This document shows positions 3,483 through 24,429 of a DNA stretch of 64,000 nt, in pieces. The position numbers and the translations under genes are program-made. The stretch's first letter is position 1. Each line of letters begins with the position of its first letter. The notes under the pieces are model-generated. The model was given only the letters and a program-made list of their open reading frames with translations, made no database searches and was not told the DNA's origin. This DNA comes from Thiocapsa bogorovii (GTDB taxonomy: Bacteria > Pseudomonadota > Gammaproteobacteria > Chromatiales > Chromatiaceae), in NCBI RefSeq assembly GCF_021228795.1, contig NZ_CP089309.1, positions 744,001 to 808,000 of the forward strand, written 5' to 3'.

Positions 3483-4334
3483 ATGTTACCAACCTTCATG
3501 ATCATCGGCGCCCATAAGGCCGGTACCACATCGCTCGCGGAATGGCTCCGAAACCACCCGGAAGCATACATACCGGCACTAAAGGAGCCTCGGTTCTTTG
3601 CCTTCGATCCTGTTGATCCGGTCTTTATCGAGAAGCCACGGCATATCTTCTCGATCCGAACCATGTCCGAGTACGAGCAGCTCTTCAGCGATTCCGTGGG
3701 CCACAAAGCGGTCGGCGAGGCCAGCCCCCAGTACTTGACCTCCGCATATGCCTGCAATGCCATATTCAGCGCACTCCCCAGCTCCCAAATCGTCGTTAGC
3801 CTGCGGCATCCTGTCCTACGCGCCTATTCCCAATACTGGATGCGAGTGCGCCTCGGCAGGGAAGCCCGAACATTCGAGGATGCATTCTCAAGCTCGGAAG
3901 AATGGGTGATGACGAGTTTCTACTACGAAAACGTCAAACGGTACGTCGATCGGTTCGGCCGGTCACAGGTCCTCGCACTGGTCTTTGAGAAACTGATCGC
4001 CGATCCGCAATCAGAGCTAGTTCGGCTCTCAGATTATCTGGGGATCGATGTCGCGCTTGGGACAGCTGCGCTCCCTTCCGAGAATGTGGGGCGAATCTCC
4101 AGAATACCGGCACTCAATCGACTCAGCGATAATCGTCAACTTTCTCTTTTATCCCGAAAATTTGTACCCCGCTCAGTCGTTCGGGTTTTCCGATCGGTAA
4201 CCAGTAAATGGTCATCTCCGACACCTAAATTGCCGCCAGATCGGACAGCCGCCTTGACCGCTCGATTCCGTGAGGATATTCAACGAACCGAGGACCTCCT
4301 ACAGATGGACCTTTCCAGTCACTGGCTGCGCTGA
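3483..4334 (+). CDS. PAPS-dependent sulfotransferase-like protein
   Basis: This protein carries the 5'-phosphosulfate loop GAHKAGTTSL at residues 9-18 and the 3'-phosphate binding segment SLRHPVLRAYSQYW near 106, the two hallmarks of PAPS-using sulfotransferases. It would transfer a sulfate group to a hydroxyl, here probably on a sugar of the neighbouring exopolysaccharide. The frame is open to 3288, but I chose ATG 3483 because it places the loop near the N-terminus as in the family and has GGAG about 10 nt upstream. It follows the GT4 gene on the same strand. It is one of five sulfotransferases in the window. Confidence 0.85.
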   Translation: MLPTFMIIGAHKAGTTSLAEWLRNHPEAYIPALKEPRFFAFDPVDPVFIEKPRHIFSIRTMSEYEQLFSDSVGHKAVGEASPQYLTSAYACNAIFSALPSSQIVVSLRHPVLRAYSQYWMRVRLGREARTFEDAFSSSEEWVMTSFYYENVKRYVDRFGRSQVLALVFEKLIADPQSELVRLSDYLGIDVALGTAALPSENVGRISRIPALNRLSDNRQLSLLSRKFVPRSVVRVFRSVTSKWSSPTPKLPPDRTAALTARFREDIQRTEDLLQMDLSSHWLR

Positions 4335-4379
4335 ACAGATTCCGAATCATCAGAGGGCGCAACAAAAACGAGACGACGC

Positions 4380-5693
4380 TCACACGCCCTTTAAACGACT
4401 TCGTGCGCGTTTTACAGTCTCCACTAGGACGCGTGGGTGACCTAACTGGGTTGCCAGATCTCGTAATCCGCGGAAGATCAAATGCCGTTTCGTTACGCGC
4501 ACGTCTCTCAATGATGCCTTGATGATGGCTAGTCCCTCCGGAAAATTGCCGCGAAACATTGCACGTAGAGCCTCATTGACCCATTGCTTCGCCAGCCACA
4601 AGGATATCGTGTCGTCAGTCAGATAGCATTCGGGGATTCCCATATCATCGAAGTACCGCTTAACCCCGTCCGGTCGCTGCCAACCCTTCACAGGCTTCTG
4701 CCCGCCCGTTTCTAAGACACGCGATTGATCCTGAACTCCGTCGTTCGAGATACTCTTCCCACGCACACGATAATGGCAAACCAGACTTGGCACTTGAATG
4801 ATACCCGTAAGTTGCCCCTCGTACAGCTCGGCGCTCCGCTTGAACAAATGCGCATAGAAACTGGAATCTTGACCGCGATAATGATACGGAATGAAAGGTA
4901 CCCCTTTCCGCACCATAAGCGTCTGGAAATGCAGCACCCCGTGGTTACCGAGCGCGAGATTTTTCCAAGTCAAGGAACGACTCGCCTTCCAGGCGTAGCC
5001 GCCCGTTATTTTCTTGACCAGCTCTCCCGCTGGCTTCATCGCTGCGCCTGACTCTGAAATCCAATCATAATCCCCGTACGCTGCGAAAGCTCGAGGATGA
5101 TTTTCCAGGCTCGCCTTCAAAGCCCCGATCGCATTTGGATCTGCATAAAGATCGTCCCCATCCATGAACGTGATATAGCCAGCGTTCTTTGGAACAAGGT
5201 TATATAGTGCCACGTTTCTACTGACGCTCGGCCACCCCACATGAGGTATCTGCAACAGGCACGCCGACATCACGGATGAATGCGCGTTCAAATCCTCGAG
5301 GGCGATCGCATCGGTTCCGTCAGAAGAGCCGTCATCAACGATCAGGGATGTAATATTCGGATCCGTTTGCCTCCTTATTGACTCCAAGGTAGCGCGAACA
5401 AATCCCGCAATATTATATGTCGGTACAACGACCGCCACATTAGCTTCACCTGGCTCCTTAAGAAGATACTCAAAATGTTCCGTCGTGTAGAGAGCCAGCG
5501 AGACTTCCGAACAGCTCTGGAGCAGGCGCAAGAGCGTTTCGCGCCGGGGGGTATCCCGGATAGACTCCACGTCCGGGAGTAGCGATATAAGAGGCAGACC
5601 ATCGAAATTTCTGCAGAACAGATGCGGGTAACTACAGCCTGCTGGCGGCAAATCAAATGGCGAAAAAGCATCGTTGACGTCACCTATCAGCAT
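4380..5693 (-). CDS. GT2-family glycosyltransferase
   Basis: A 437-residue protein with a central GT-A domain: VAVVVPTYNIAGFVRATLES begins near residue 86, LIVDDGSSDGTDA follows, and ITFMDGDDLYAD near residue 175 supplies the metal-binding DxD-type motif. About 85 residues precede the catalytic domain and include no clear motif. It probably adds one sugar of the exopolysaccharide repeat on the cytoplasmic side. It converges with the plus-strand sulfotransferase and lies downstream of other minus-strand glycan genes. Sugar donor unknown. Confidence 0.88.
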   Translation of the reverse strand: MLIGDVNDAFSPFDLPPAGCSYPHLFCRNFDGLPLISLLPDVESIRDTPRRETLLRLLQSCSEVSLALYTTEHFEYLLKEPGEANVAVVVPTYNIAGFVRATLESIRRQTDPNITSLIVDDGSSDGTDAIALEDLNAHSSVMSACLLQIPHVGWPSVSRNVALYNLVPKNAGYITFMDGDDLYADPNAIGALKASLENHPRAFAAYGDYDWISESGAAMKPAGELVKKITGGYAWKASRSLTWKNLALGNHGVLHFQTLMVRKGVPFIPYHYRGQDSSFYAHLFKRSAELYEGQLTGIIQVPSLVCHYRVRGKSISNDGVQDQSRVLETGGQKPVKGWQRPDGVKRYFDDMGIPECYLTDDTISLWLAKQWVNEALRAMFRGNFPEGLAIIKASLRDVRVTKRHLIFRGLRDLATQLGHPRVLVETVKRARSRLKGV

Positions 5694-6000: not shown

Positions 6001-6885
6001 TTACTCGCCATAACCGTAGCGTGCTAGGTGTGAATCAAGTATCCGCTCAAGAATGGTCACTTGCTGTTGACTCAGATCCCTTCGATATGCCGAATGACGT
6101 GAGGACGAAAAGCGATAACCTTCGACAATCTTGAGGAACTGCGGGGTCATCGGTAAGTCGAGGAAATCCAGCACAAGCTGGAACGACGCACAGGGGTCGC
6201 TGGTGAAATCCTCGAAACGCAGAATGAGATACCGATCGGCAGGCAGGGCAGGTTCTGCTGCGCGCGCTGCGTCCATTAAGAGCTTCCAAGCGATCCCGGC
6301 CAACGCTACAAACGATCGCCCTTCACGCTCCCATTCACTTCGATACGTTGCCGACAGAGGTCCCCACAGCCAACTTTCCGGGCCAAGGTACCCATTCCAC
6401 CACGGCATTTGCAGCCAAGAGTTAGCGACCGCTCGGCCGTCACGAACGATATGGATAAACCTGGCATCCGGAAAGATCTCATTGAAGAACAGCAACCGCG
6501 GCCAACCGGTGTATTTGTGGAGAAAGAGCTCACGCCGTTGGGCGACCGCACGTTCGCTGAAGAACCTTTGGAATCGATCCCTCATCCAAGGGGTCACATC
6601 TTCCGCCACCAAGTCGCGACAGCTATTGACGTAGATGGGAGAGACCTCCCGGCCGATGATCCTGTACCCTTCAGAGGGTGCGAACCGCACTCCGCCCTTG
6701 CGTGTCGGTATCGCGATCGGCGCACGATACAGTAGATTGTTCCAACACCCCAGGCGGTTCAACCCGCCAAGATTGTCTTCGATATTCGACAGAAATCCGA
6801 ACGCGGGATGCCGCGCAAGGACCTCATGGACGACCGTGGAGCCACAACGCCCCGTACCCATCAGGAATGCGATCCTCAACTGCAC
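6001..6885 (-). CDS. Sulfotransferase family protein
   Basis: A 294-residue protein with the 5'-phosphosulfate loop GTGRCGSTVVHEVL at residues 10-23 and the 3'-phosphate segment IHIVRDGRAVANSW around residue 144. The RDGR motif is typical of the broad Sulfotransfer_3 group. It should use PAPS; the acceptor is probably a glycan in this locus, which is inference. It lies 161 bp downstream of a GT4 gene on the same strand and may share its transcript. Confidence 0.85.
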   Translation of the reverse strand: MQLRIAFLMGTGRCGSTVVHEVLARHPAFGFLSNIEDNLGGLNRLGCWNNLLYRAPIAIPTRKGGVRFAPSEGYRIIGREVSPIYVNSCRDLVAEDVTPWMRDRFQRFFSERAVAQRRELFLHKYTGWPRLLFFNEIFPDARFIHIVRDGRAVANSWLQMPWWNGYLGPESWLWGPLSATYRSEWEREGRSFVALAGIAWKLLMDAARAAEPALPADRYLILRFEDFTSDPCASFQLVLDFLDLPMTPQFLKIVEGYRFSSSRHSAYRRDLSQQQVTILERILDSHLARYGYGE

Positions 6886-7046
6886 CTCCCACTTAAGCTA
6901 TCCATAGAACGTCCAACCCCGGATTGCAGAAGGGATCTCACCTTGTCGAGCATCACCTACATGGCTCGCACCCTGCGACACTGCGTCTGCGGCAAACCGC
7001 GCTCATACGGAACGCAGCCTCTTGTCCGGGAGGCCAGTCGAGCCTC

Positions 7047-8315
7047 CTAGCCGATACTACCATCCGGGCGCGGAGCTCCCTCGGGGCATCCAAACAACTC
7101 AAGGTACTTTGCCTCGAGTAGGGGGGTCATTGCTTCATAGGACCGATGACGGCGGACATAATCCGGACCCAGTTGGCCCATACGCTCCGCATCAGCGGGC
7201 GATTTCAGCAGCGTCACAACCGCGTCTGCAAAGCGCCGAACGTCATAAGGAACAATAAGCCCGGCGCCGCTCTCGCGAACTACCTTGGATTGGTCAGGCT
7301 GATCGTTTGCGACAACGGGGCAACCCAAGGCTAGATACTCCATGACCTTCGTCGGCGACCCGGCGTCCAGCATGGGACTCGGCCGTAGCGGCGATAGTCC
7401 CAGCTTCGCGGCCTTGATCAGACTCCATGCCTTTTCCATCTGAACATGCCCCGTGAAATGCACGTAGTCCTGAACGCCTCGCGTCTCAATCACTCGTTCG
7501 ATGAACGACATATCGGATATCGACCCGTCTCCCACCAGAACCAACAATACGGTGGGGCATTCGACGCGTACGAAATCGAGGACTTCAACAAGAAAATCCA
7601 GACGCCTTGCCTTGACCAATGTCCCGACGTAGACGATTACCAGACGATCCTGAAGCCAAGCCTCGTCAGCAGGGGCGACCTCGGACCCTCCGATCTTCGA
7701 CCACTTAACCCCCATAGGAACCGGCGTCATCTTCGAACGTGCGACGCCCCTCTCGGCGAGGTCGTCCTCCATCCGATCACTCTGGACAAAGATATGGTGC
7801 GCGCGCGGTAGAATCACACGATATAGAACCTGCGCGGAGACGTACCCACGGATGAACAGCATAATGCGCTTTGCGAGAGAGAGTCCGAGAGTGTTATCCC
7901 GGGCTTTGAAGAGATCGGCCTCGACATATCGGAACGACATCCAAAACACAAAAGGCCGCCGTGCCAGCGCGCACCCGATGACGGCGATCAGGGCCCCGAG
8001 AATCTGATCTCGCACCTGCACGAAATCATAGGGGTTTTGCTTGATCAAGCCAATGAGGCTCAACGTGTGCCCTAGCCTACTCAGCGAATTTTCCCACCGC
8101 GCTCGTACTGATGAGCTTGGTTTCTTGGCACAGAGGAATACCCGTTCGTTCACCCCGACCTGCCGAACCCCACCGTCAGAGATTTCGGCGGGATGCATGT
8201 GCCAATCGATCCGGTGACCTCGGTCGGCGATGCCGGAAGAAAACAACTCCGTCAAATCGACACGATCGTTCGGAAACTCTTCGAATGTCGAATACAGAAA
8301 GTACAACTTTCTCAT
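7047..8315 (-). CDS. GT4-family glycosyltransferase
   Basis: A 422-residue GT-B glycosyltransferase beginning MRKLYFLYSTFEEFPNDR. A longer frame reaches 8648, but that extension overlaps the polymerase gene out of frame. ATG 8315 overlaps the stop of the upstream polymerase gene by 4 bp (ATGA), which implies translational coupling. The C-terminal domain has VYVGTLVKARRLDFLVEVL and the donor-binding stretch SPTKVMEYLALGCPVVAND. It is part of the exopolysaccharide operon; the sugar is unknown. Confidence 0.9.
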   Translation of the reverse strand: MRKLYFLYSTFEEFPNDRVDLTELFSSGIADRGHRIDWHMHPAEISDGGVRQVGVNERVFLCAKKPSSSVRARWENSLSRLGHTLSLIGLIKQNPYDFVQVRDQILGALIAVIGCALARRPFVFWMSFRYVEADLFKARDNTLGLSLAKRIMLFIRGYVSAQVLYRVILPRAHHIFVQSDRMEDDLAERGVARSKMTPVPMGVKWSKIGGSEVAPADEAWLQDRLVIVYVGTLVKARRLDFLVEVLDFVRVECPTVLLVLVGDGSISDMSFIERVIETRGVQDYVHFTGHVQMEKAWSLIKAAKLGLSPLRPSPMLDAGSPTKVMEYLALGCPVVANDQPDQSKVVRESGAGLIVPYDVRRFADAVVTLLKSPADAERMGQLGPDYVRRHRSYEAMTPLLEAKYLELFGCPEGAPRPDGSIG

Positions 8316-9817
8316 TCCGTTACCTTCGATCCTATTGTCGTCCTGTGTTGGAGCCAGAAGAGGAGGCCGAACGTACTCATCAGCAAGAACATCATATTCC
8401 CGGCATAGGGAACGTCGCTTCGATAGAGAACCGCGACACCGAACAGAGGAAAACTCGGAACAAGCGCTTGGGCCAGCGCCCGCTCGAAACCGCCGAACGT
8501 CTCGTTCGCCATCAAACGAGACGCCATCAGAGATGCAGACAGCAACAAGCCAAAGAAGGTCACCGCGCCAATCAAACCAACCTCCCACAGCAATAAGGCC
8601 AATCCCGTGCGATCGATGAACATAGGATCCTCCTGTTTCGCCACCCACCCTGTCGCTTGGCCGCCTGTTTTCGCGGACCCCAGACCATGCCCGAAAAGCA
8701 TCTCACCGAGTCCTGCATCGAAATTTTGGCGTGCCCAATAAACGACTGCCCCAGGACGGGTCAAATGTCCGGTGGATTCGTCGTGCTCGCTCTCCACCTG
8801 AAAACTATACGCGAACATGTGCGTCGCATCCTTGCCCCGATCATCCCAGTGGATCGCTTGATAAACGGCGAGTAGACCAGAAAGGGCGATCGCAACCACT
8901 CCGACGGTCAAAGCAAATGCGAGGGGCCGACGGTAAGCGTAATCTCTGAACAATACCAACGCCCCTAGCGGCACGTACAAAAAAACGATCTTCTCTTCCA
9001 TGAACACCAGCGGGAGCAGAACGATCATCAGCAACAAGCTCAGCCGCTTCGCGTTGATCAAAGATTGGCGCCAGGCCGACAAGAGCATCAGGGCGATCAA
9101 CACGAGAAATAGCGCGAGCACTGGAGCCAGCCCGCCCTGGCCAACGCCTCCTCCGAAGGTGCCGGTGACGGAATCGCCCGAGAACATGCCAGTGGCTGCT
9201 TTTTGCCGGCCGCCAACGACAAACCATTGGTACAGAACAAGCAACGGCTGCAGGAACGCGATGCCGAGCCAGCCGTAAAACCATGCCTTCAGAGAGGCCA
9301 AAGGAATCGGGTACACTGCGAGGAAGACCCAGACACCGCCGAAGAAAGCCCAAGTCTTTATCGACGCCAATAAGAGTCCGGGTGACGGTGGGTAAAAGGA
9401 CCAGGAAACGACCACCGTAAGCAAGAACACAGTCAACCAAAACAGGACCCATGTCGACGCTGAGCGCTGCTGAAAGCGGGCTTGACCTCCAGCGAGTACC
9501 GCGAGGGCCGGCAAATAAAGCAACGCGCCTAACCCGTAGGAAATCCACTGCACGCCCCCTACTCCTGCGATGAAGTATTTCGCGAGGCCGACCACGACGA
9601 GGGTCAGGATCGTCACGATCCAAAGTAGTGCAATCGGATGAAGGAACAGCACCGACGCAACAAGCGCACCCAAAGCCGCGGCACCGATCACAGGTGCAGA
9701 CATCTTCGCAACAAAGGGCTCAAGACCCAATGCCACGATGGCGCTTGTGGCCGCAATAGCGGCCAAGACGAACGTGACACCAACAAATTTCAGCGGGCTA
9801 TGCATCGGTTTGGCCAA
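8312..9817 (-). CDS. O-antigen ligase/Wzy-like polysaccharide polymerase
   Basis: A 501-residue polytopic inner-membrane protein with many hydrophobic segments from residue 8 to 480 and a large loop around residues 310-400 rich in charged residues. This is the layout of the O-antigen ligase/polymerase (Wzy_C) superfamily, which joins lipid-linked repeat units or ligates glycans on the periplasmic side. No flippase is visible in the window. It lies 12 bp after a sulfotransferase gene and overlaps the following GT4 start by 4 bp, so it belongs to one transcript with them. Assignment rests on topology and context rather than on a conserved motif. Confidence 0.75.
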   Translation of the reverse strand: MAKPMHSPLKFVGVTFVLAAIAATSAIVALGLEPFVAKMSAPVIGAAALGALVASVLFLHPIALLWIVTILTLVVVGLAKYFIAGVGGVQWISYGLGALLYLPALAVLAGGQARFQQRSASTWVLFWLTVFLLTVVVSWSFYPPSPGLLLASIKTWAFFGGVWVFLAVYPIPLASLKAWFYGWLGIAFLQPLLVLYQWFVVGGRQKAATGMFSGDSVTGTFGGGVGQGGLAPVLALFLVLIALMLLSAWRQSLINAKRLSLLLMIVLLPLVFMEEKIVFLYVPLGALVLFRDYAYRRPLAFALTVGVVAIALSGLLAVYQAIHWDDRGKDATHMFAYSFQVESEHDESTGHLTRPGAVVYWARQNFDAGLGEMLFGHGLGSAKTGGQATGWVAKQEDPMFIDRTGLALLLWEVGLIGAVTFFGLLLSASLMASRLMANETFGGFERALAQALVPSFPLFGVAVLYRSDVPYAGNMMFLLMSTFGLLFWLQHRTTIGSKVTE

Positions 9818-9829: not shown

Positions 9830-10669
9830 TCACAGCTCGCCGATGGTCCAGTAATCGGCCGGCTTACCATAGAAAGCGAGAAACTTTTCCATATCCGGTG
9901 TGACCTTTTCGATCGCGTGAGCGCGGATCGCTTCCGGCCATTCGGGCTTCTTCTCAAGCCTGAAGGTCAAGAAAGGTTGAATCGCTGCTCGCAGGCTCGG
10001 GGGAAGCTTTTTCCAAAGGCTCAGGCTACCCGGCACCTGTCTCAGGGCGCGACCCGAGCCTTTGTCGGCCCGTCGCCCGAGTGAGCGGTTCTGCGCCTCG
10101 CGTGAGTCGGGAATGACAAAGGTTTCGTCTACACCGAGGAATGCGAAGCAGTCGGCCAAAACCATGTCCGGGTCTTTGACGTAGTCTTCAAAAAAGACGA
10201 CATGGATTCTGTCGTCCGGGAAGTTTTCCCGATACAGGCTGATCTGACGCCAAAACAAAGAGGCGTCCAGCATCCAAGGAACTTCTCGATAGGTTCTCTC
10301 GAAATCCCACAAGGGGTTTCGCCTCAAGCGACGTCGATGTAACCAATGCGTCTCCATTCGACGCAAAGGGTGTCTGACCATGTAAATTAGACGTACATTC
10401 GGGAGATGGCGATAGATCAGGTCAGGCGCATCCGGCTGATAGACGTTACGGGAATATGTCGTACTCCCTTCGCCGATGGCGGTCTCTGTGGTGACGGTCT
10501 TGAAATGCTCCTCGTACCAGCCCCATCCCCTCGCGAACACCTTCGGGTCCGAAAAGAAATGGAGCTCTTTCGGGTTCGTCATAAAGACGTCCGGGTGCTT
10601 ACCCAGATTCGCACATAGGCTTGTCGTGCCGCAATTCTGTGCGCCGATGACGAGATAATTCGGTCTCAT
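9830..10669 (-). CDS. PAPS-dependent sulfotransferase-like protein
   Basis: A 279-residue protein with the 5'-phosphosulfate loop GAQNCGTTSLCANL at residues 8-21, followed by HPDVFMTNPKELHFFSD, and the 3'-phosphate segment LIYMVRHPLRRMETHW near residue 93. It resembles the heparan sulfotransferase-like Sulfotransfer_1 group, as does the product at 3483. It is 12 bp upstream of the polymerase gene. It probably sulfates the polysaccharide or a lipid-linked intermediate. Confidence 0.88.
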   Translation of the reverse strand: MRPNYLVIGAQNCGTTSLCANLGKHPDVFMTNPKELHFFSDPKVFARGWGWYEEHFKTVTTETAIGEGSTTYSRNVYQPDAPDLIYRHLPNVRLIYMVRHPLRRMETHWLHRRRLRRNPLWDFERTYREVPWMLDASLFWRQISLYRENFPDDRIHVVFFEDYVKDPDMVLADCFAFLGVDETFVIPDSREAQNRSLGRRADKGSGRALRQVPGSLSLWKKLPPSLRAAIQPFLTFRLEKKPEWPEAIRAHAIEKVTPDMEKFLAFYGKPADYWTIGEL

Positions 10670-15591: not shown

Positions 15592-17370
15592 CTATTGTTC
15601 AACAGCTGTGCTGGTTTCGGACGGATCCGATGCACCGGTGAGCGTTGCGGCAATGTCGCCTAAGGGCATCACGAAGAGATGAACGAGCAACACACCCAAA
15701 GCGATTGCGCCCGCGACGGCGCCACTCAGCATCATGACTCGTCTCGAGCGCAGGCGCTGATCTGCCTCGGTCTCGATGAATGGAATCACGGCGAGGGGCG
15801 ATGAGCCGATGATCGATTGAACGATCTTGGGTCCGTAGATGCGTTTATCCATCGCCTCGCGAACCACGGCATGCCCCATACCACCGCCGACCGAAAGCAC
15901 GAACCCCAGGAAAAGCAAACCCAGCCGGTTGGGCTTGTAGGGTTTGCGTGGGAGAGGCGGCGGCTCGATCAGCGAGAAGCGCTCGCCTCGACTCTCGGTT
16001 TCCAAGGCCTCGGCCAACCGAGCGGCGCTCAGCTTTTCGAGAATATCCTGATAGCTCGTGACGGCGTTGTTGTAATCACGGGTCAACGTCTTGTATTCGC
16101 GTTCGATTTGCGGACTATCCGTGATCCGCTGCTCATACTCCTTCAAGCTGGCCAGAAGCTCGTCTCGCGTGACGCGCGCCGAGCGTAGATCGGCTTCGAT
16201 TGCCGCCAAGCGCGTTTGAAGCTGAACGTACGAGGGATTGTTCGCGTCCGATACGCCGGGGACCCAATCGCTGGCGCCATTTCCTTGCTTGCCCAACTCC
16301 GCACGCGTCGCCGCGACGGCCCGTTGGAGACGTTTGACGTCCGGATGCTCCTCGGAATAACGATCAAGCGCGGACCGAAGCTCGGCCTGTTGCTGCACGA
16401 GTTGACGGCCGAGATTCTCGGTGTCGGAGGTACCGACGGCCTTGCGCAGTGCCGCCAGCTCTCTCTCGACGCGGACTCGATCTGGGTGTGTCGGCGAATA
16501 GCGAGCGGCTAGACTGACATACTCGGCTTCCAGGACGCGCAGACGATCGGCCGGTGTCATCACCCGCTCGCCCGTCGAGGAAAACATCGCAGCATAAGGC
16601 TCGGTCGAGGCGAGCTCCGACTGAAGATACATGCGCTGTTGCTCGAGCGTGCGGATCGACTCCTCCTGATTCCGCAGACGTTCCTCCGTGCTCTTCATGC
16701 GCTCGAGGTTGAAGTTCATCAACTCGGGCAGGCGATGGCCCTCAGCCTCCTTGAACTCCGCGAGCTGCTTCTCGAGCACGTCGATCTGTCCGGAGAGCTT
16801 ACGCGCCTCTTGCTCGAGGAAGTCGGACGTCTTCTGTGCCGTTTCCTTGCGGTCGCGAACGTTCTCCTCGAGGAACAACTGAATGATCTCGTTGGCTACG
16901 GCTTGCGCGACCTCCGGTGACGGGTGATCGAACGACAGCGAGAAGGCGATCGCAACCTGCTGAGCGCGCCCTCCGCGCGCGTCGGCGACATTGGCGCTGA
17001 TCGTTTCGAGCTCGATGTCCTTCTGCATCTCGCGCACGGCGTACGCCAGGCCGAAATCGCGCCTGATATCCGAATAGAGATCGTAGCGCTCCATGATCCG
17101 ACCGAGGTTCTCGGCGGTCATCACCTTTTGGCTGACGATCTGCACGCGCTCGCCGGCGTAGCTCGTCACGGTCGACTGGACGAGATCGCTCGGGATCTCT
17201 TGCTGCTCGATGAGGATCGTCCCTGTGGAGCGGTAGACCGCGGGGAGCCCGACGGCGACCGCGGCGGCAGCGAGGAAGATCACCAAAGCAGGCACGATGA
17301 TTTGCCATCTGCGCCGCTTCAGGGTCGCGACGTAGTCGTCGATGTTTTGGGTTTGGTAGTGCTCGGCCAT
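15592..17370 (-). CDS. Wzz/GNVR-type exopolysaccharide chain-length determinant
   Basis: A 592-residue inner-membrane co-polymerase. An N-terminal membrane segment (about residues 19-38) leads into a long periplasmic coiled coil rich in Glu, Gln and Arg (about 170-400). A proline-rich motif PPPLPRKPYKPNR near residue 480 precedes another membrane segment, and a third lies near residue 550. This is the usual layout of polysaccharide co-polymerases that work with a Wzy-type polymerase, an OPX exporter and a BY-kinase. It starts 9 bp after the stop of the outer-membrane barrel gene on the same strand and is clearly part of the operon. Confidence 0.92.
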   Translation of the reverse strand: MAEHYQTQNIDDYVATLKRRRWQIIVPALVIFLAAAAVAVGLPAVYRSTGTILIEQQEIPSDLVQSTVTSYAGERVQIVSQKVMTAENLGRIMERYDLYSDIRRDFGLAYAVREMQKDIELETISANVADARGGRAQQVAIAFSLSFDHPSPEVAQAVANEIIQLFLEENVRDRKETAQKTSDFLEQEARKLSGQIDVLEKQLAEFKEAEGHRLPELMNFNLERMKSTEERLRNQEESIRTLEQQRMYLQSELASTEPYAAMFSSTGERVMTPADRLRVLEAEYVSLAARYSPTHPDRVRVERELAALRKAVGTSDTENLGRQLVQQQAELRSALDRYSEEHPDVKRLQRAVAATRAELGKQGNGASDWVPGVSDANNPSYVQLQTRLAAIEADLRSARVTRDELLASLKEYEQRITDSPQIEREYKTLTRDYNNAVTSYQDILEKLSAARLAEALETESRGERFSLIEPPPLPRKPYKPNRLGLLFLGFVLSVGGGMGHAVVREAMDKRIYGPKIVQSIIGSSPLAVIPFIETEADQRLRSRRVMMLSGAVAGAIALGVLLVHLFVMPLGDIAATLTGASDPSETSTAVEQ

Positions 17371-17379: not shown

Positions 17380-18588
17380 CTACCGTAACGTTGAGAAACG
17401 GCGGAGGGGTTCCCTCGGCCACTTGTAGTTGACGCTCAGGAAGATAGCATTCGACACCGCATCCTCGGCGATGATCTCGCGCTTCTGCCAACGGAGACGA
17501 TAGCTGAGATCAAGACTCAGGGATTCGCTTAAACGACGTCCGAGTCTTGGCGACACGTCGACGTAGTCGCGGTCGTTCCCGGAGATCTCACCGCCCGGAT
17601 TTCGGTTGCGATAGGCGCTAGCGTTCAGGCCGAACGTCCACAGGGGGCTGATGGGATAGTCGAAGCCCAGCGTGATGCCGGTGGTATCGAGGAGGGTGCC
17701 TCGGCCACTCGGCAGCAAGGATCGCTCCGCCAAGAGCTCGACGCCGCCGACGATGAAGTCTTTCGTCCATTCCAGTTGAAAAATCGGCCCGAAGCTGTCC
17801 GTGTCGTCCACGCCATCTTCGATCGGCGTCTCCGCATCCGAATGTCGAACACCGGCGAGTGCTCTGATGGACGAGGTCTCCGACAGTAGATATCGCAGAC
17901 CCGCTTCCACCCCGACGCTGGTCGTCCGAGTGCCGTCGGCAGTGGATTCGTAATTGTCGTAAGCTGTCTGACCGACGAGTTGCATACGCTCGCTGATCTG
18001 GTAGCCGATTGTCACATTCGCTCTTGCAAAGGTGTAGTTCGACAACGGGATTTGGTTGACGTCCTCATAGGAGACGTCTTCGTAGCTCAGCCCTGTATCG
18101 AGCGTCGCGCGCTCGGTGATCTGGTAGGCCCAAGTAGGCCGAACCACGAACCGGCTCCGCCGCTTATTGACCTGCACGAAACCTGTTGTCGCCTCTTCGC
18201 TGGTCAGCGTCGAGTCGTAGTCGAGATCCGCATTTAACCCCAAACGATGACGGTCAAGCTGGTAACTGGAGATGAAAGCGAGCGAGCCGTTCGTTCGGTC
18301 GAGGTCTGACGCATCCGCGTATTGCTTGCTGTTGACCGTCAAACCCAGGCCGATGTCGCTGACCTCCGTCCGGCGCCCCGCCGTCACCGTACCCCTCAGG
18401 ACGGCACCGAGCGAGCTCTCGGGATCTCTCGTGGAGAGTCGAACGTTGTCGTCGTAAAAGGTGCGGATGCCGGCCCTGGGTTCGACATACCAGATATCGG
18501 AAAGCGCTTCGGACGACATGCAGGTGAGAAGCGCTAGCATCACGGCGGCATGGCCGACGAGACGCGGCTGAAAGGTTTCGTTATTCAA
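17380..18588 (-). CDS. Outer-membrane beta-barrel protein of the polysaccharide export system
   Basis: A 402-residue exported protein. Residues 1-30 form a signal peptide. The rest alternates aromatic and polar residues with many short predicted strands and Asp/Ser/Thr-rich turns, typical of the outer-membrane barrel (BBP2-like) proteins found in PEP-CTERM-type exopolysaccharide loci. It lies between the OPX exporter and the chain-length gene, which suggests that it forms the outer-membrane channel for the polymer. It does not end in a classical terminal Phe. Confidence 0.78.
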   Translation of the reverse strand: MNNETFQPRLVGHAAVMLALLTCMSSEALSDIWYVEPRAGIRTFYDDNVRLSTRDPESSLGAVLRGTVTAGRRTEVSDIGLGLTVNSKQYADASDLDRTNGSLAFISSYQLDRHRLGLNADLDYDSTLTSEEATTGFVQVNKRRSRFVVRPTWAYQITERATLDTGLSYEDVSYEDVNQIPLSNYTFARANVTIGYQISERMQLVGQTAYDNYESTADGTRTTSVGVEAGLRYLLSETSSIRALAGVRHSDAETPIEDGVDDTDSFGPIFQLEWTKDFIVGGVELLAERSLLPSGRGTLLDTTGITLGFDYPISPLWTFGLNASAYRNRNPGGEISGNDRDYVDVSPRLGRRLSESLSLDLSYRLRWQKREIIAEDAVSNAIFLSVNYKWPREPLRRFSTLR

Positions 18589-18652
18589 GATCTCACCTCA
18601 GGCCGTAACACCTACAGCATCCTTATACGCCGCGACGGCGAATCCGAGGGCA

Positions 18653-19255
18653 TCAGGGCACGACAATGACGTCGCCGGCCTGCAACGGGATATTTTGCTC
18701 GAGGTCTTCTCCGCGGCGTATCCTACGGTAGTCGAACGGAATCGAACGTTGTTGACCGTTTTCCACTCGGAGGACTTTGATCTTTTTCTCGTCTGCGAAC
18801 GGGGTTAGCCCACCAGCCATCGAAAGGGCCTGCATGACTGTTACATCCCGGGCGATGATTGCAAAATCACCGGGCTTGTTGACCTTCCCGATGACGTAGA
18901 TGCGGTTACCGGGGATTTCCTGAAGCGTCACCGTCACGACAGGGTCCGGGATGAACTTTGAGAGGCGCTGCTTAAGTACCGCGCCGAGCTCCTCCAGGGT
19001 CAGGCCTTCGGCCCTTAGATCGCCGGCCAATGGAAAGGATATGCCGCCGTCCGGCCGGACGAGCACGAGTTGCTCGAGACCCGGCTCTTGCCAGACCGAC
19101 ACGGCGACGATATCGCCGGGACGCAGCTCGTAACCCTGTTGCGGCACGGCCGCATCGGCGATGGACGCAGCCGCGATGCCGACCAGCATGAGCATGGCGC
19201 AAAGCGCTGTTCCCACGTCAGCAACGCGACGAATGCACGGCAGTTCCAGTTTCAT
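18653..19255 (-). CDS. Short OPX/Wza-type polysaccharide export protein
   Basis: A 200-residue periplasmic protein with a signal peptide (about 1-36) and one export domain starting YELRPGDIVAVSVWQEPGLE, then an SLBB-type domain from GNRIYVIGKVNKPGDFAI to the end. It lacks a lipobox cysteine and lacks the C-terminal amphipathic helix that full-length Wza uses to cross the outer membrane. It therefore probably needs a partner barrel, most likely the next gene. It is the first gene of the export/assembly part of the operon. Confidence 0.9.
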   Translation of the reverse strand: MKLELPCIRRVADVGTALCAMLMLVGIAAASIADAAVPQQGYELRPGDIVAVSVWQEPGLEQLVLVRPDGGISFPLAGDLRAEGLTLEELGAVLKQRLSKFIPDPVVTVTLQEIPGNRIYVIGKVNKPGDFAIIARDVTVMQALSMAGGLTPFADEKKIKVLRVENGQQRSIPFDYRRIRRGEDLEQNIPLQAGDVIVVP

Positions 19256-19574: not shown

Positions 19575-21137
19575 CTACTGGAAGACCGCCCAGCCTACGC
19601 TCTCTGCAACGTGGTTGGTTTCGGCGTCCTTGGACTGCTCTTCTTCAGCTCGAAGCTCCACGTCGCTCGCACTGAGGTTGGCATGGCGCAGTGCCGTCGG
19701 GTCGCCGCCGTTGGCCGTCTGCATGTCCGCCAGAAACACCGGAGTCTCGGTGAAGCCGGCGCCGAAGCTCAGGGTCGAGGGTTGATCGGTCACGGCGTTG
19801 GCCTTGATACCGACCGCGAACTGCAACCCGTCCACCGTACCCTTCGAAGGCTGCCAGGCGATGTAGCTGATGCTCTCGGCGCCATGACCGGCCGTGAACG
19901 ACTCTTGCTCGTCCAGCCGCAGCCGGAAACCCTGCGCCGTGATGTCGCGGACCCGTGCCGATACCGCCTTGGCATCATTAACGCTGCTCACCGAGGCGAA
20001 CACCACCGGCACCGTCGGGAAGGCTTCGGCGAACCCGAAGCTCGAGTACCAGCGACCGGACTGCGTCAGAGTACCCGCCTCGATGCGTTCGCCGCTCGGC
20101 AGTACGTGACTGCCCTTCTCCATCGCCACGTAGGTCACGGTCTCGAAGGCGTGTTTTCCGTCGAGGTAATCCCATTCCTGGATGCGGACCCAGAAGCCGT
20201 CCGACTCGATACCGGAGATGCGCACCACGACCGGTTCGCTGCCGTTGAAGCTCGGCGGATTGGCCACGACGACCGGATCGACGAACGACCGACCGAACTC
20301 AACCCACTGCCAATTGTGATCGACCACGACCTCGCCGACTTCAATGATCGCCGGAGTCTCGTCTGCGGCTTGGAAGATGGCCCAGCCCACGCTCTCTGCA
20401 ACGTGTTTGGTTTCGGCGTCCTTGGACTGCTCTTCTTCAGCTCGAAGCTCCACGTCGCTCGCACTGAGGTTGGCATGGCGCAGTGCCGTCGGGTCGCCGC
20501 CGTTGGCCGTCTGCATGTCCGCCAGAAACACCGGAGTCTCGGTGAAGCCGGCGCCGAAGCTCAGGGTCGAGGGTTGATCGGTCACGGCGTTGGCCTTGAT
20601 ACTGACCGCGAACTGCAACCCGTCCACCGTACCCTTTGAAGGCTGCCAGGCGATGTAGCTGATGCTCTCGGCGCCATGACCGGCCGTGAACGACTCTTGC
20701 TCGTCCAGCCGCAGCCGGAAACCCTGCGCCGTGATGTCGCGGACCCGTGCCGATACCGCCTTGGCATCATTAACGCTGCTCACCGAGGCGAACACCACCG
20801 GCACCGTCGGGAAGGCTTCGGCGAACCCGAAGCTCGAGTACCAGCGACCGGACTGCGTCAGAGTACCCGCCTCGATGCGTTCGCCGCTCGGCAGTACGTG
20901 ACTGCCCTTCTCCATCGCCACGTAGGTCAGGGTCTCGAAGGCGTGTTTTCCGTCGAGGTAATCCCATTCCTGGATGCGGACCCAGAAGCCGTCCGACTCG
21001 ATACCGGAGATGCGTACCACGGCCGGCTCTGCATCGTTGAAGCTCGACGGATTGGCCACGACGACCGGATCGACGAACGACCGACCGAACTCAACCCACT
21101 GCCAGTTGTGATCGACCACGACCTCGCCGACTTCGAT
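19575..21137 (-). repeat. 792-bp tandem duplication within the PKD/lectin gene
   Basis: Unit one runs 21137-20346 and unit two 20345-19575, the second cut short by the stop codon. The period is exactly 792 bp (264 codons). Only a handful of substitutions separate the units, most of them near the junctions and in the first 40 codons. Confidence 0.95.
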
Positions 21138-22502
21138 CGGCAGGGTTCCGTCTTCAGGCTTTACTTCGACAAAGCCGCTCTTGGTCATGACGTGATCGCC
21201 ATAAGGCCCTGTGACCGACAGCGTGACGTCGTAGCTACCGGCCTCATCGTAGACATGGGTCGGATTGGGTTCGCCGCTGGTCTGCCCGTCGCCGAAGTTC
21301 CAGGTCACCCGCGAGATTTCGCCCGAGGACAGATCTCGGAAGGCCACGCTCAGCGGCGCATTGCCGACGCGGCTCACCGCGTCGAAGTCCGCGACCGGGG
21401 GAGGACCGGCAACGGTTACGAGGTTGGTCTTGGTCATGACGTCGGATCCGCCGGCGCCGCTAACCTTCAGAGTGACCGAATAGGTTCCCGGCTCTTGATA
21501 GGTCCAAACCGCTTGCGATCCCGTGGCACGCCCGCCATCGCCGAAGTCCCATTCGCAAGCACTGACGTCGCCCCTGGACACGTCGGTGAAGACCAGTGAC
21601 ATCGGGGCAACGCCGCTCGTGGCACTCTCACTGAAACCGGCGACCGGAGGAGGAACCACAACGCTGATCTTGGCCGTCGCTGCTTGCGCGGAGACGCCTC
21701 CCGCGCCCTTCACGCGAAGACTCGCGAGGTATTCACCCGCTTTCAAATAGACATGATTCGGTGAACGTTCATTGCTGGTGTTCCCGTCGCCGAGATCCCA
21801 TTCCCAGGAATCGATTACGCCGGTGGAGCGATCGGTGAATTGAACGGCAAAGGGAGCCTGACCGGCACTGGCGTTCGTTTCGAACGCGGCGAACGGCGCC
21901 GGAGTGGCAACCGTGACAACGGCCTTTGCCGGCTGCAGCGCCGCGCCGCCGGGTCCGCTGACCATGAGGCTTACGGTGTAGGTGCCGGGTGTCGTGAAGG
22001 TGTATTTCGGCGAGGACTGGCTGCTGGTGGCTCCGTCTCCGAAACTCCACTGCCAGTTGTCGACCTTGCTGGTGGAGGTGTCGCTGAAGGCCACGGTCAA
22101 TGGCGCCACACCCGAGCTTGCACTCATCGTAAATCCGGCTTCGGGTGCCGGATAGGGAATCGTGGTGCTGACCTCGTTGGAGAAGGCGCTGTCCAGCGAG
22201 CGATCGGAGTTGAATGCCTTGACCGCGAAGTAGTAGGTCTTGCCGGCCTCCAGCCCGCTGACGGACTGACTGTTGGTCGAAGACTGCACTGATTTGGAAT
22301 AGTTTCCGCTCGCTTCGCCGTAATGCAGCTCGTATCCTGCGACACGGGAGTCATCGACCCCGTTCCAGGCCAGGGTGAGATCCGAAGCTGTAACGTTTGC
22401 CGACATGGCGAGGATAAAGAGCATCGCCCAAAGGCCGAAGCTCCATTGATAAAATCGCGATTGAGCGAGAGTGGCTACCCGTAGTGTATGCTGAGTGTTC
22501 AT
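19575..22502 (-). CDS. Secreted FnIII-PKD protein with duplicated H-lectin-like modules
   Basis: A 975-residue exported protein. An N-terminal signal/membrane segment (about 20-40) precedes one fibronectin III domain (about 42-122), four PKD domains (about 125-450, each with a WxFGDG-type motif), and two modules at 456-719 and 720-975. Each module holds three repeats of the type SVNDAKAVSARVRDI...GFRLRL, which resemble the H-type lectin fold. The two modules are nearly identical. No PEP-CTERM or LPXTG sorting tail is present. The likely role is extracellular carbohydrate binding or adhesion, perhaps to the polymer made nearby; this is inference. AAAGGTG precedes the ATG. A terminator follows the gene. 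Confidence 0.85.
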   Translation of the reverse strand: MNTQHTLRVATLAQSRFYQWSFGLWAMLFILAMSANVTASDLTLAWNGVDDSRVAGYELHYGEASGNYSKSVQSSTNSQSVSGLEAGKTYYFAVKAFNSDRSLDSAFSNEVSTTIPYPAPEAGFTMSASSGVAPLTVAFSDTSTSKVDNWQWSFGDGATSSQSSPKYTFTTPGTYTVSLMVSGPGGAALQPAKAVVTVATPAPFAAFETNASAGQAPFAVQFTDRSTGVIDSWEWDLGDGNTSNERSPNHVYLKAGEYLASLRVKGAGGVSAQAATAKISVVVPPPVAGFSESATSGVAPMSLVFTDVSRGDVSACEWDFGDGGRATGSQAVWTYQEPGTYSVTLKVSGAGGSDVMTKTNLVTVAGPPPVADFDAVSRVGNAPLSVAFRDLSSGEISRVTWNFGDGQTSGEPNPTHVYDEAGSYDVTLSVTGPYGDHVMTKSGFVEVKPEDGTLPIEVGEVVVDHNWQWVEFGRSFVDPVVVANPSSFNDAEPAVVRISGIESDGFWVRIQEWDYLDGKHAFETLTYVAMEKGSHVLPSGERIEAGTLTQSGRWYSSFGFAEAFPTVPVVFASVSSVNDAKAVSARVRDITAQGFRLRLDEQESFTAGHGAESISYIAWQPSKGTVDGLQFAVSIKANAVTDQPSTLSFGAGFTETPVFLADMQTANGGDPTALRHANLSASDVELRAEEEQSKDAETKHVAESVGWAIFQAADETPAIIEVGEVVVDHNWQWVEFGRSFVDPVVVANPPSFNGSEPVVVRISGIESDGFWVRIQEWDYLDGKHAFETVTYVAMEKGSHVLPSGERIEAGTLTQSGRWYSSFGFAEAFPTVPVVFASVSSVNDAKAVSARVRDITAQGFRLRLDEQESFTAGHGAESISYIAWQPSKGTVDGLQFAVGIKANAVTDQPSTLSFGAGFTETPVFLADMQTANGGDPTALRHANLSASDVELRAEEEQSKDAETNHVAESVGWAVFQ

Positions 22503-23604
22503 CGTGTCACCTTTAGTCCGACGTGATCGGCTCTTTCAGGTGTCACAGCTGAGCTCTATGCTGAGCCTAGAAGGCATCGGCGACCGCACTGCCGAGGTCT
22601 TATGTGTTGCCGTGTTATACCTGGAGAAGCCAAATCGCCCTGCGTAGCTAGATCCGATCGAGCGATATTTCTGCGTACGCTGTGACTCTAGTGACTTGAG
22701 GTAACCGAATCCGTGACGTCATTCCCATCATCGCGGGATGCCCCTTTTCGCGATGCGGTCAATGAGCAAAACGTGAAGCAGATCCCATTTCGGAGCTGAT
22801 ATGAAGAACGGAATTGGAGCTGCGGATTGGCGTTGAATCATTGAATGGATTTGCGTTCCGTGAACCGGGTCACGGAATCGACATCGCGGGGGGCAAGAAT
22901 TGAGGAACAGAGGTGCGGAGAGCGGCCGGAGAGGGTGAGTCTCGATCGTGACTCAGGTCGAGCCTGAAGCTGGCGACGGGCGCCGGGGGGCGGCATGCTT
23001 GGCACCGCTGAGAGTGTGTCGCACGTTTTTTCTGGCGAGCTCTCTCCCGAGACTCTGCCTGATTAGAAAGAATCGTCCGCAAGGCTCACGGAGTGAGCAC
23101 CGATCAGCGCGGACTCTTCCCAGATCCACCGTCCGATGGAGCCTACCCTGGCCATGAATCGATGCCGGTGGTTTCCGGCTGCCCCGACGGGGCTCACCAC
23201 GCGAGCCCAGGGCAACGCCCCGGGACCACGACCCCCGTCCAGCCTGAGCCCTGAAGGGGCGGCCCAACGCTTTGATGTGTCGCTCTTAGGGGCGCGTTTC
23301 GGGAGGGGCCGAACGGTGACAACGCCCCGGTAGGGGGCATCTCTTGACCGCCCTTTCAGGGCTCAAGGATTTTGGTTGATTGAAACCCGGGGCGCTGCCC
23401 CGGGCTGACATCGGTCGCGCCGTTGGCGCTCGACACAAAGTGCCGCAACGCGGCTCGCCAGGCCCGCCCTCGGTGGTTTTGGTTGCTTGATACTCGCGGC
23501 CCTCCGCTCAATCGCGGATTCGGCGCGTAGCTGAATCTCCTTACTGGTCAGTAGACCCTGTCAGGTTTGGGTGGCCGGTCTCTGAGCGAGCACCCCGATG
23601 GGTG
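22503..23604. other. Long intergenic region with an inverted repeat pair
   Basis: About 1.1 kb between two minus-strand genes. It holds no convincing gene. The part from 23203 to 23407 contains an inverted repeat described separately; the rest shows nothing recognisable. Confidence 0.5.
23203..23407. repeat. Pair of 60-bp elements in inverted orientation
   Basis: The arm at 23203-23262 begins GAGCCCAGGGCAACGCCCCG and ends GAGCCCTGAAGGGGCGG. The arm at 23348-23407 is its reverse complement at both conserved ends (17 bp with one mismatch, and 22 bp with a few). The middle of each arm differs. The spacer of 85 bp contains further GGGGCG/CGCCCC palindromes. Confidence 0.7.
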
Positions 23605-24429
23605 CTATCCGTCAAGCATCCATTCGTATGGCGTTGCGGTGAGATAGGATTTTAGGTCGGAGAAGTTGACGACGATCTCGGAGAGGGTAAACGGTGTCGT
23701 TCGAGACAAGCGAGGTGAAACCTCGGCAGGGGTGATGTTCAGGAAATCGCAGAACATGCGATAGGCGCGTGTCGGGTCGGTTTCGATATCCCTTTCGAAC
23801 TCGAGGGAGAGCATGCGTTCTTGATTCAACTCGGTTCGCAAGCTGTCGTAGCCTGCCTGCAGATAATCGAGCCACCCGATGAGTGAGACCGGATAGTCTC
23901 CGCGTGCATCGTGAACGACGTTGCGCTCTTGATCGGTTTCCAGGAATTGGAGCATGGCCGTTTCGAGGTCGATTTCGATTCCTTTGAACTCAGGCTTGGT
24001 TTGTCCTTTCTTCTGCCACACACCCGATTGGCGTGCATTGAGTGCCGAAATGACGAGACGGACCAGGTTACGCCGCTCCAGCATGGCGAAGTGAGTAAAC
24101 CCGAGCTGCTTGAGCTGCGCGATGAAGTCCGGCAGCTCGAATCCGATCGGTTTGAGCTGATAGAGCTGCAGATCGAACCCGTAGAAACGGCGTCCGGCAT
24201 AGAGCATACGTCCTTTGAGCTTCTTTACGGCATCCTGACGGCGCCCCGGGAAGTGATGGAAGATCTCGCCTCCCCACAGAACCTCCGGATGCTGCCCCAT
24301 CAGATCGGCGAGCACGGAGCTGCCGCTGCGCGCCTGATGAAAGAGCACGACGTTTCCTTTGCGCAGCGGCGAGGTGGCGGCCCCGTATACCCAGCGCACC
24401 CCGTTCTCAAGCGTTTTTCTCGGGTTCAT
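23605..24429 (-). CDS. Sulfotransferase family protein
   Basis: A 274-residue protein with the 5'-phosphosulfate loop FHQARSGSSVLADLM at about residues 30-44, followed by HPEVLWGGEIF, a pattern of the Stf0-like or Sulfotransfer_3 groups. The 3'-phosphate site is probably the Arg-rich stretch LERRNLVRLVISALNAR near residue 117. It lies 11 bp downstream of the UDP-glucuronate decarboxylase gene, so the two are co-transcribed. It is the fifth sulfotransferase in the window. Confidence 0.8.
   Translation of the reverse strand: MNPRKTLENGVRWVYGAATSPLRKGNVVLFHQARSGSSVLADLMGQHPEVLWGGEIFHHFPGRRQDAVKKLKGRMLYAGRRFYGFDLQLYQLKPIGFELPDFIAQLKQLGFTHFAMLERRNLVRLVISALNARQSGVWQKKGQTKPEFKGIEIDLETAMLQFLETDQERNVVHDARGDYPVSLIGWLDYLQAGYDSLRTELNQERMLSLEFERDIETDPTRAYRMFCDFLNITPAEVSPRLSRTTPFTLSEIVVNFSDLKSYLTATPYEWMLDG

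Follow-up and report, generated by a model that had tools for sequence, protein, structure and literature searches.

A sulfotransferase-rich exopolysaccharide locus of Thiocapsa, probably built for a multiply sulfated heteropolysaccharide and partly broken, apparently recently, in one strain

Known sulfated polysaccharide loci

A 2021 paper described sulfated polysaccharides as restricted, among bacteria, to cyanobacteria (PMC8205485), and a few marine sulfated capsules have been reported since then (PMC11641403, PMC11766843). The portions of these papers used here place sulfated capsule loci in cyanobacteria, Vibrio, and Cobetia; a literature search found none from purple sulfur bacteria. Sulfated polymers are also reported from granular sludges, where, in the part of the source drawn on, the dominant genera gave few sulfotransferase matches (PMC10483923).

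The xss cluster for synechan in Synechocystis sp. PCC 6803 is of the Wzx/Wzy type and sits in a phototroph, as the Thiocapsa locus described below appears to be and do, and in both clusters numerous glycosyltransferase genes are mixed with sulfotransferase genes from different subfamilies. According to the sections of PMC8205485 used, xss contains two sulfotransferases and a Wzx flippase, is plasmid-borne, and has a chemically demonstrated product. In contrast, the Thiocapsa locus, described here from its genes, comprises five intact sulfotransferases (six in the putative ancestor), a GT47 enzyme, a UDP-xylose synthase, and a broken ABC exporter.

Vibrio sp. KMM 8419 (PMC11641403) and Cobetia marina KMM 1449 (PMC11766843) also have gammaproteobacterial surface-polysaccharide clusters with sulfotransferases. 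As far as the portions used describe them, their capsules are of the ABC-transporter type, with PAPS genes in the cluster and solved structures, and KMM 8419 has three named sulfotransferase genes, one of them in the O-antigen part. The assembly in Thiocapsa looks Wzy-type instead, and its PAPS genes lie elsewhere in the genome, so that sulfotransferase and PAPS genes do not share one cluster as in KMM 8419. The putative sulfated GAG-like cluster of Pontiella sulfatireligans likewise shows GAG-type sulfotransferase similarity beside GT2 and GT4 genes, but has one sulfotransferase; its polymer was measured as sulfated, mostly N-sulfated (PMC7356697, part of the source).

The XrtA/PEP-CTERM exopolysaccharide loci (TIGR03007, TIGR03016, TIGR03018, TIGR03027) have relatives of Wzz, the outer-membrane barrel, the kinase, and Wza in common with the Thiocapsa locus. 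The latter differs in being rich in sulfotransferases and in reaching none of the four equivalog cut-offs. No exosortase is present in the locus, and the best genome match lies at 5.34 Mb.

Organisation of the locus

Thiocapsa species are purple sulfur bacteria. The window is a 64,000-nucleotide stretch of the Thiocapsa bogorovii genome, and the locus is syntenic with regions of T. roseopersicina DSM 217 and Thiocapsa sp. KS1, which hold counterparts of its five sulfotransferases (ST1–ST5) plus a sixth (ST6). The accompanying genes up to 27.7 kb are as follows.

2132..3256, plus strand: GT4 glycosyltransferase (Pfam Glyco_trans_1_4, 59.5 bits; syntenic, 62% in KS1, 56% in DSM 217)
4380..5693, minus strand: GT2 glycosyltransferase (Pfam Glycos_transf_2, 58.4 bits; 54% in KS1, no counterpart found at the equivalent position in DSM 217)
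7047..8318, minus strand: GT4 glycosyltransferase (Pfam Glyco_trans_1_4, 80.4 bits)
8312..9817, minus strand: Wzy-like polymerase, candidate (80% in KS1, 50% in DSM 217)
11928..13187, minus strand: GT4 glycosyltransferase (Pfam Glyco_transf_4, 101.1 bits)
13136..14011, minus strand: GT47 exostosin-like/RXYLT1_C-like glycosyltransferase (Pfam Exostosin_GT47, 38.5 bits, cut-off 33.4; RXYLT1_C, 32.7 bits, cut-off 27)
14285..15124, minus strand: tyrosine autokinase, XrtA-associated type (TIGR03018, 160.5 bits, below the cut-off of 230.65)
15592..17370, minus strand: Wzz-type chain-length determinant (TIGR03007, 263.7 bits, below the cut-off of 278.85; Pfam match 23.7 bits, below 25.5)
17380..18588, minus strand: outer-membrane beta-barrel, PEP-CTERM system-associated type (TIGR03016, 62.8 bits, below the cut-off of 90.85)
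18653..19255, minus strand: Wza-type export protein (Pfam Poly_export, 82.2 bits; TIGR03027, 137.3 bits, below the cut-off of 180)
19575..22502, minus strand: fn3/PKD/H-type lectin protein, internally duplicated over a long stretch (Pfam PKD_4, 213.4 bits; H_lectin, 51.4 bits)
24441..25469, minus strand: UDP-glucuronate decarboxylase (UDP-xylose synthase; PDB 2b69, E 5.5e-125; 96–97% in relatives)
25644..26876, minus strand: GT4 glycosyltransferase (Pfam, 100.4 bits)
26873..27748, minus strand: methyltransferase (Pfam Methyltransf_11, 56.2 bits)

Glycosyltransferases, the GT47/exostosin-like enzyme, and UDP-xylose synthase thus accompany the five sulfotransferases among Wzy/Wzz/Wza-type genes. 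The Wza, Wzz, and glycosyltransferase families expected of a Wzx/Wzy-type locus are all present and uphold the first-pass annotation, which had placed the sulfotransferases in an exopolysaccharide locus. By gene content this is a predicted Wzy-type exopolysaccharide or capsule locus with PEP-CTERM-associated architecture. The polymerase is a candidate on the basis of its many hydrophobic segments and its position; against Pfam, even at E 10, it gave nothing usable and a single irrelevant 12.8-bit match. The ORF of the GT4 gene at 7047..8318 extends to 8648, and a start near 8318 is backed by homology in DSM 217. Neither a priming transferase nor a PAPS gene is found within the locus, and no Wzx flippase is seen among the locus genes scanned. 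The genome has three Wza-type matches, one in the locus and another 20 kb from a second sulfotransferase group.

The sulfotransferases

The five sulfotransferases proposed earlier are all present as ORFs and confirmed by sequence. The Pfam Sulfotransfer_3 cut-off is 27 bits.

3483..4334, plus strand: ST1, heparan-sulfate 3-O-sulfotransferase type (Sulfotransfer_3, 57.6 bits on ORF 3288-4334; PDB 3rnl, E 1.2e-34; heparan 3-OST 3A1, E 1.4e-11)
6001..6885, minus strand: ST2 (Sulfotransfer_3, 66.2 bits; orthologs 71% and 61%)
9830..10669, minus strand: ST3, heparan-sulfate 3-O-sulfotransferase type (Sulfotransfer_3, 54.1 bits; PDB 3rnl, E 1.5e-24; heparan 3-OST 1, E 1.1e-9)
10670..10971, minus strand: ST6 remnant (blastn of 10600-11050 against DSM 217 and KS1: both ends kept, middle missing)
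10972..11931, minus strand: ST4 (Sulfotransfer_3, 32.8 bits; 87–88% in relatives)
23605..24429, minus strand: ST5, NodH/Stf0-like (Pfam 22.9 bits, sub-threshold; hhalign to a NodH/Stf0-like set)

The ATG of ST1 at 3483 lies within the longer ORF 3288-4334, and homology starts at that ATG. ST5 alone has no significant match among PDB sequences (NodH, E 0.53). The profile of its three orthologs aligns with 11 NodH/Stf0-like proteins (hhalign 99.7%, E 2.5e-25, 220 columns), a set which in turn matches the solved 'LPS sulfotransferase NodH' 9vki (E 6.5e-42) and Stf0 1tex (E 5.7e-8). ST6 is intact between the third and fourth sulfotransferases in the syntenic loci of DSM 217 and KS1; these copies are 93% identical to each other and score 40.1 bits in Pfam.

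PAPS-dependent sulfotransferases carry a 5′ phosphosulfate loop and a 3′ phosphate-binding Arg...Ser motif. The loop is found by scripted search in ST1, ST4, ST5, and ST6, and was read by eye in ST2 and ST3. The 3′ motif is found by script in ST2–ST6 and was read by eye in the window's ST1; in ST3, Thr replaces Ser in all three genomes.

The strong divergence first noticed among the five holds, with only ST1 and ST3 (28% identity) clearly in one subfamily, and ST5 pairing with the relatives' ST6 (23%, E 1.7e-6). Since the subfamilies differ, it is plausible that the enzymes act on different positions or sugars. The reported coupling to assembly genes is also reproduced: ST3 lies 12 bp from the Wzy-like gene if the latter starts at TTG 9817 (24 bp if at ATG 9805), and ST4 overlaps the next glycosyltransferase by 4 bp. 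The gap between ST5 and UDP-xylose synthase is 11 bp. The clustering is not due to chance, because when 12 genes were placed at random 200,000 times, four never fell within 8.5 kb.

PAPS supply

A search of the genome for PAPS synthesis genes, proposed as a check in the first-pass annotation, finds ATP sulfurylase and APS kinase, and therefore PAPS can be made. They map to 4.93 and 4.97 Mb, outside the locus at 0.75-0.78 Mb. The host presumably has ample PAPS precursor.

Decay of the right third

Five adjoining genes between 27.7 and 39.5 kb carry stops, frameshifts, or insertion sequences.

27658..32424, minus strand: GT2 gene disrupted by a frameshift near 32316 and by an insertion sequence of 3.47 kb spanning about 27971-31437 (tblastn; another copy of the element, near 4.454 Mb, matches it at 99.94% identity)
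32424..33750, minus strand: GT2 gene broken by a frameshift near 32.71 kb
33660..35670, minus strand: broken HepA/MsbA-like ABC exporter, flippase candidate (in-frame TAG stops at 35239 and 34804; also frameshifted near 34.6 and 33.8 kb)
35558..38176, minus strand: GT2 gene interrupted by a DDE_5 insertion sequence (about 35714-37216)
38207..39538, minus strand: GT2 gene with a premature in-frame stop at 38525 (the DSM 217 alignment continues past the stop)

The stretch first singled out for its sulfotransferases ends short of this part. Counted by hand, nine of ten lesions lie within the rightmost 21% of the sequence (binomial 6.7e-6), or seven of eight without the two insertion sequences (1.2e-4). 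The ABC gene is the sole exporter or flippase candidate of the locus, and is intact in the two relatives, where it shows ABC_membrane and ABC_tran domains and a best NCBIfam match to HepA (436 bits, below the cut-off of 725). With this gene broken and no Wzx seen, no functional flippase is apparent in the window's locus. The broken gene still has a low dN/dS (0.11), so its loss looks recent. The assumption that this bacterium itself makes the polymer is thus not supported, as five genes including the sole exporter candidate are damaged and ST6 is a remnant.

Proposed pathway and alternative explanations

Gene families, synteny, lesions, low dN/dS, and PAPS genes together favour a locus built for a multiply sulfated heteropolysaccharide, whose common ancestor had six sulfotransferases and which was recently broken in this strain; this reading is probable, with room for doubt. 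A priming transferase encoded elsewhere would load the lipid carrier, and GT4, GT2, and GT47 enzymes would assemble the repeat unit. The sulfotransferases, which fall into about four groups, would transfer sulfate from cytosolic PAPS to different sugars. The ABC exporter would flip the unit, the Wzy-like protein would polymerise it, Wzz and the kinase would set its length, and Wza with the outer-membrane barrel would release the polymer, which probably contains xylose. The ancestor shared by the three Thiocapsa lineages would have carried an intact exporter and six sulfotransferases. ST6, four GT2 genes, and the exporter are broken, apparently recently, in the window's strain, where five sulfotransferase genes remain intact. 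Close relatives probably make the multiply sulfated polysaccharide. With those six genes broken, the window's strain may no longer make the complete polymer.

The locus may, however, still work here, a possible but on balance unlikely case: the sulfotransferase/Wzy/Wza half would itself be the machine for the sulfated polymer, the decayed GT2/ABC block would have served a side chain or a different product, and the unit would be carried by another flippase. Only one of the ten lesions lies in the left 25.6 kb. Window-branch dN/dS is low (0.04–0.20) across ST4 (0.20), ST5 (0.08), Wzz, and Wza, and is higher in the GT2 gene at 38.2-39.5 kb (0.39) and the methyltransferase (0.36), as expected of a relaxed block. 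ST4 and ST5 show no relaxed selection; the sulfotransferases may therefore remain in use, and the broken block could be a module that is separable from them. Intact MsbA-like ABC paralogs elsewhere in the genome (at most 35% identity over at least 400 residues) could replace the exporter and speak against the favoured reading, and an ORF near 4.4423 Mb is Wzx-like by appearance, without a Pfam match. Nevertheless, no second flippase candidate is seen in the locus, the order of the ABC and GT2 genes is kept in both relatives, and a dN/dS of 0.11 in the broken ABC gene is what a simply recent loss would leave.

It is improbable that the sulfotransferases merely share the locus while sulfating something else, for example LPS, O-antigen, a glycolipid, or a secreted glycoprotein. 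Among the relatives of ST5 and ST6 are the glycolipid enzyme Stf0 and the solved 'LPS sulfotransferase NodH', and PF13469 matches occur in 67 of 77 family genomes. The tight coupling of ST3, ST4, and ST5 to the Wzy-like, GT4, and UDP-xylose synthase genes argues otherwise, and ST1–ST3 diverge together with Wzy and nearby glycosyltransferases across Thiocapsa relatives, as substrate-matched parts would. Sequencing or assembly errors in an intact locus are very improbable: frameshifts could be indel errors, but two insertion sequences have copies elsewhere in the genome, three in-frame stops have alignment continuing on both sides, and the 19 genes to the left show no such lesion.

If the favoured reading is true, the six ancestral sulfotransferases of this Thiocapsa locus extend the trait to anoxygenic phototrophs and are a source of new carbohydrate sulfotransferases; the named strains DSM 217 and KS1 allow a direct test. 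A more speculative and rather unlikely extension is that some Thiocapsa have a heparan-like, multiply sulfated, xylose-containing capsule with serotype-like strain variation, switched off by loss of the exporter and one sulfotransferase. It is based on the constancy of ST4–ST6, GT47, and UDP-xylose synthase, unlike ST1–ST3, the polymerase, and nearby glycosyltransferases. The favoured reading itself, a sulfated polymer made by the locus type, also draws on another Thiocapsa genome, where a sulfotransferase comes immediately after a Wzz gene, and on a GT47 relative (56%) in a Bacteroidales MAG that adjoins two sulfotransferase genes. This GT47–sulfotransferase link outside Thiocapsa is seen at one of three loci, and counting against it, the other two have no sulfotransferase in the six neighbouring ORFs scanned.

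Sulfotransferases of the locus

The sulfotransferase locus is real, and in the relatives Thiocapsa roseopersicina DSM 217 and Thiocapsa sp. KS1 it probably makes a sulfated coat. The first-pass annotation had proposed a sulfated polymer from five sulfotransferases in one exopolysaccharide locus (3483-24429); the genes stand, but the locus is partly broken in the window's strain, with damage beyond that interval. The features are as follows.

3483-4334, sulfotransferase ST1
6001-6885, sulfotransferase ST2
8312-9817, putative Wzy-like polymerase
9830-10669, sulfotransferase ST3
10670-10971, remnant of a sixth sulfotransferase, ST6
10972-11931, sulfotransferase ST4
13136-14011, exostosin-like glycosyltransferase GT47
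19575-22502, PKD/fn3/H-type lectin protein
23605-24429, sulfotransferase ST5
27971-31437, insertion element
33660-35670, broken ABC exporter
39956-41251, uncharacterised nucleotidyltransferase

All five sulfotransferase ORFs lie where they had been placed, ST1 with an ATG at 3483, and the reported coupling distances to neighbouring genes are correct on re-measurement. ST1 to ST4 match Pfam Sulfotransfer_3 with 57.6, 66.2, 54.1, and 32.8 bits, all above the cut-off of 27 bits, and ST5 falls below it at 22.9 bits. By sequence, ST1 and ST3 belong to the heparan-sulfate 3-O-sulfotransferase type. As single sequences against PDB sequences, ST4 has no match and ST5 no significant one (NodH, E 0.53). 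The relationship of ST5 is detectable by profiles only: three ST5 orthologs align with 11 NodH/Stf0-like proteins over 220 columns at 99.7% probability. This set in turn matches two solved proteins, NodH at E 6.5e-42 and Stf0 at E 5.7e-8, and 9 of its 11 members match Sulfotransfer_3. The predicted structure of ST5 (mean pLDDT 42.2) is too poor for a fold search. Individual sulfotransferases may act at separate acceptor positions.

Assembly genes and sulfate donor

By profile and sequence matches, the stretch from 2.1 to 27.7 kb encodes GT4- and GT2-type glycosyltransferases, GT47, a UDP-glucuronate decarboxylase (PDB match, E 5.5e-125), a methyltransferase, a tyrosine kinase, Wzz, an outer-membrane barrel, Wza, and the PKD/H-lectin protein. 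The polymer would probably contain xylose. GT47 additionally matches RXYLT1_C; its link to exostosins comes from Pfam, since the best PDB match, exostosin-1, reaches only E 0.035, and its predicted structure (mean pLDDT 45.5) is too poor for a fold search. The Wzy-like polymerase is a putative assignment from hydropathy and position. The kinase, Wzz, barrel, and Wza are similar to the PEP-CTERM/XrtA set, though each scores below the cut-off of its family. The best exosortase match in the genome is at 5.34 Mb, away from the locus, and the three strong priming-transferase matches are likewise elsewhere.

In the likely route, the repeat unit would be assembled and sulfated in the cytosol on a lipid carrier, flipped in its sulfated form by the ABC exporter, polymerised by Wzy, and exported through Wza. 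PAPS-synthesis genes, which the first-pass annotation had called for, are present in the genome: a single ATP sulfurylase scores 258.7 bits, and a single clear APS kinase scores 258.9 bits with NCBIfam apsK (cut-off 138.7). They lie at 4.93 and 4.97 Mb. Another APS-kinase match is short (24.1 bits).

The lectin protein has a long near-exact internal duplication, present also in DSM 217; the duplicated part is single copy in KS1. Related proteins occur at 690 kb and in another Thiocapsa genome (G001). The nucleotidyltransferase that borders the locus on the right (PF14907, 173.8 bits) is intact and conserved in both relatives.

Comparison with relatives

A GT47 alignment scan of the genome collection matched DSM 217 and KS1, both of the same genus as the window's genome, Thiocapsa. 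They have the same gene order at the locus and all five sulfotransferases. Both also carry ST6 between ST4 and ST3, a Sulfotransfer_3 member (40.1 bits) that is 93% identical between them. At this place the window has 302 bp; blastn finds both ends of the region there, and not the middle.

ST4, ST5, GT47, UDP-xylose synthase, the kinase, Wzz, and Wza have 80-97% identity to both relatives. Wzy, ST1, ST2, and two neighbouring GT4 genes have 49-61% identity to DSM 217, with synonymous change saturated, and ST3 has 72%. KS1 has 62-85% identity to the window for Wzy, ST1, ST2, ST3, and the two GT4 genes. With identity this uneven, the left part looks like an exchangeable, substrate-defining module. 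The KS1 assembly is listed at 10.4 Mb over 40 contigs, the first of which alone measures 5.07 Mb, and so may be mixed.

Damage in the window's strain

With DSM 217 proteins as queries, five adjacent genes are broken between 27.7 and 39.5 kb. The HepA/MsbA-like ABC exporter, intact in DSM 217 with both ABC domains, has two frameshifts and two in-frame TAG stops, the latter confirmed by an independent count. One GT2 gene carries both a frameshift and the 3.47-kb insertion element, which shares 99.94% identity with a copy near 4.454 Mb. A DDE_5 element interrupts a second GT2 gene, and a 98% copy of that element lies near 706-707 kb. A third contains a frameshift, and a fourth stops prematurely. 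By hand count, 9 of 10 lesions lie within 21% of the sequence. Polymer production may have been lost in this strain.

On the window branch, the broken exporter has a dN/dS of 0.11, ST4 has 0.20, and ST5 has 0.08. Higher values are seen in the prematurely stopped GT2 gene (0.39; 0.26-0.60) and in the methyltransferase (0.36; 0.21-0.69); the remaining three broken GT2 genes have 0.16-0.22. The GT47 value of 0.43 (0.02-1.32) is too uncertain to use, and saturated dS makes the ratio unusable for ST1 and ST2 and, on the window branch, for ST3. These values indicate a recent loss for most of the block and do not yet bear on sulfotransferase disuse.

The 3.47-kb element encodes an rve integrase and a second ORF. 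Its copy near 4.454 Mb sits within the genome's other sulfotransferase-bearing polysaccharide region (G000:C1:4441309-4484439). In that region three ORFs account for four Sulfotransfer_3 matches; it also encodes an FkbM methyltransferase and a priming transferase, and a Wza match follows 20 kb further along. One of the three sulfotransferase ORFs (L033:8327-9334) matches the C-terminal part of the family only, and insertion elements occur in the area.

Known clusters and distribution

Two sulfotransferases serve synechan production in Synechocystis, and the authors of that work knew of no others among bacterial exopolysaccharide clusters (PMC8205485). Sulfated capsules and their gene clusters are described for Vibrio (PMC11641403) and Cobetia (PMC11766843), and a putative GAG-like cluster for Pontiella (PMC7356697); a 2026 paper deals with Actinoplanes. 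The Thiocapsa locus is of a known kind and has more sulfotransferases than the published clusters compared: five, or six in the relatives, against two for synechan. Titles and abstract starts of the open-access papers searched reveal no such locus for Chromatiaceae (sulfated exopolysaccharide), purple sulfur bacteria, or Thiocapsa (sulfotransferase), and nothing on point for Thiocapsa slime or exopolysaccharide.

ST5 and GT47 are rare outside Thiocapsa. With the window's own genome included throughout, 194 family genomes yield 5 with an ST5 match, 3 of them strong, and 147 order genomes yield 6 with a GT47 match, again 3 of them strong; on these counts a locus widespread in the family is rejected. 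At E 1e-6, an ST5/ST6 profile matches 12 of the 398 phylum genomes. Within the genus sample, ST5 is strong in 3 of 11 genomes and weak in a fourth. In a Bacteroidales MAG, a GT47 relative (56% identity) adjoins two sulfotransferase genes, both above the Pfam cut-off. The other two non-Thiocapsa GT47 loci have no sulfotransferase in five neighbouring ORFs of one and one ORF of the other (a 3.6-kb contig). An initial view of GT47 as a regular companion of sulfotransferases is narrowed to the Bacteroidales locus, one of three.

Sulfotransfer_3 genes occur in 67 of 77 family genomes, and therefore presence alone is ordinary; four within 8.5 kb are more than chance would give. Groups occur in other family genomes too, such as four within 9 kb in G014. 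By tblastn, the groups of G014, G058, G030, G094, G105, and G010 have none of the locus's Wza, Wzz, kinase, or barrel adjoining, except a weak kinase relative in G030, and for this reason no general claim is made for such groups. In one family genome (G105:C1:5298610-5413753), a 115-kb stretch has at least nine Sulfotransfer_3 matches, in ORFs of 437-1353 aa; this appears to be another type of sulfotransferase array.
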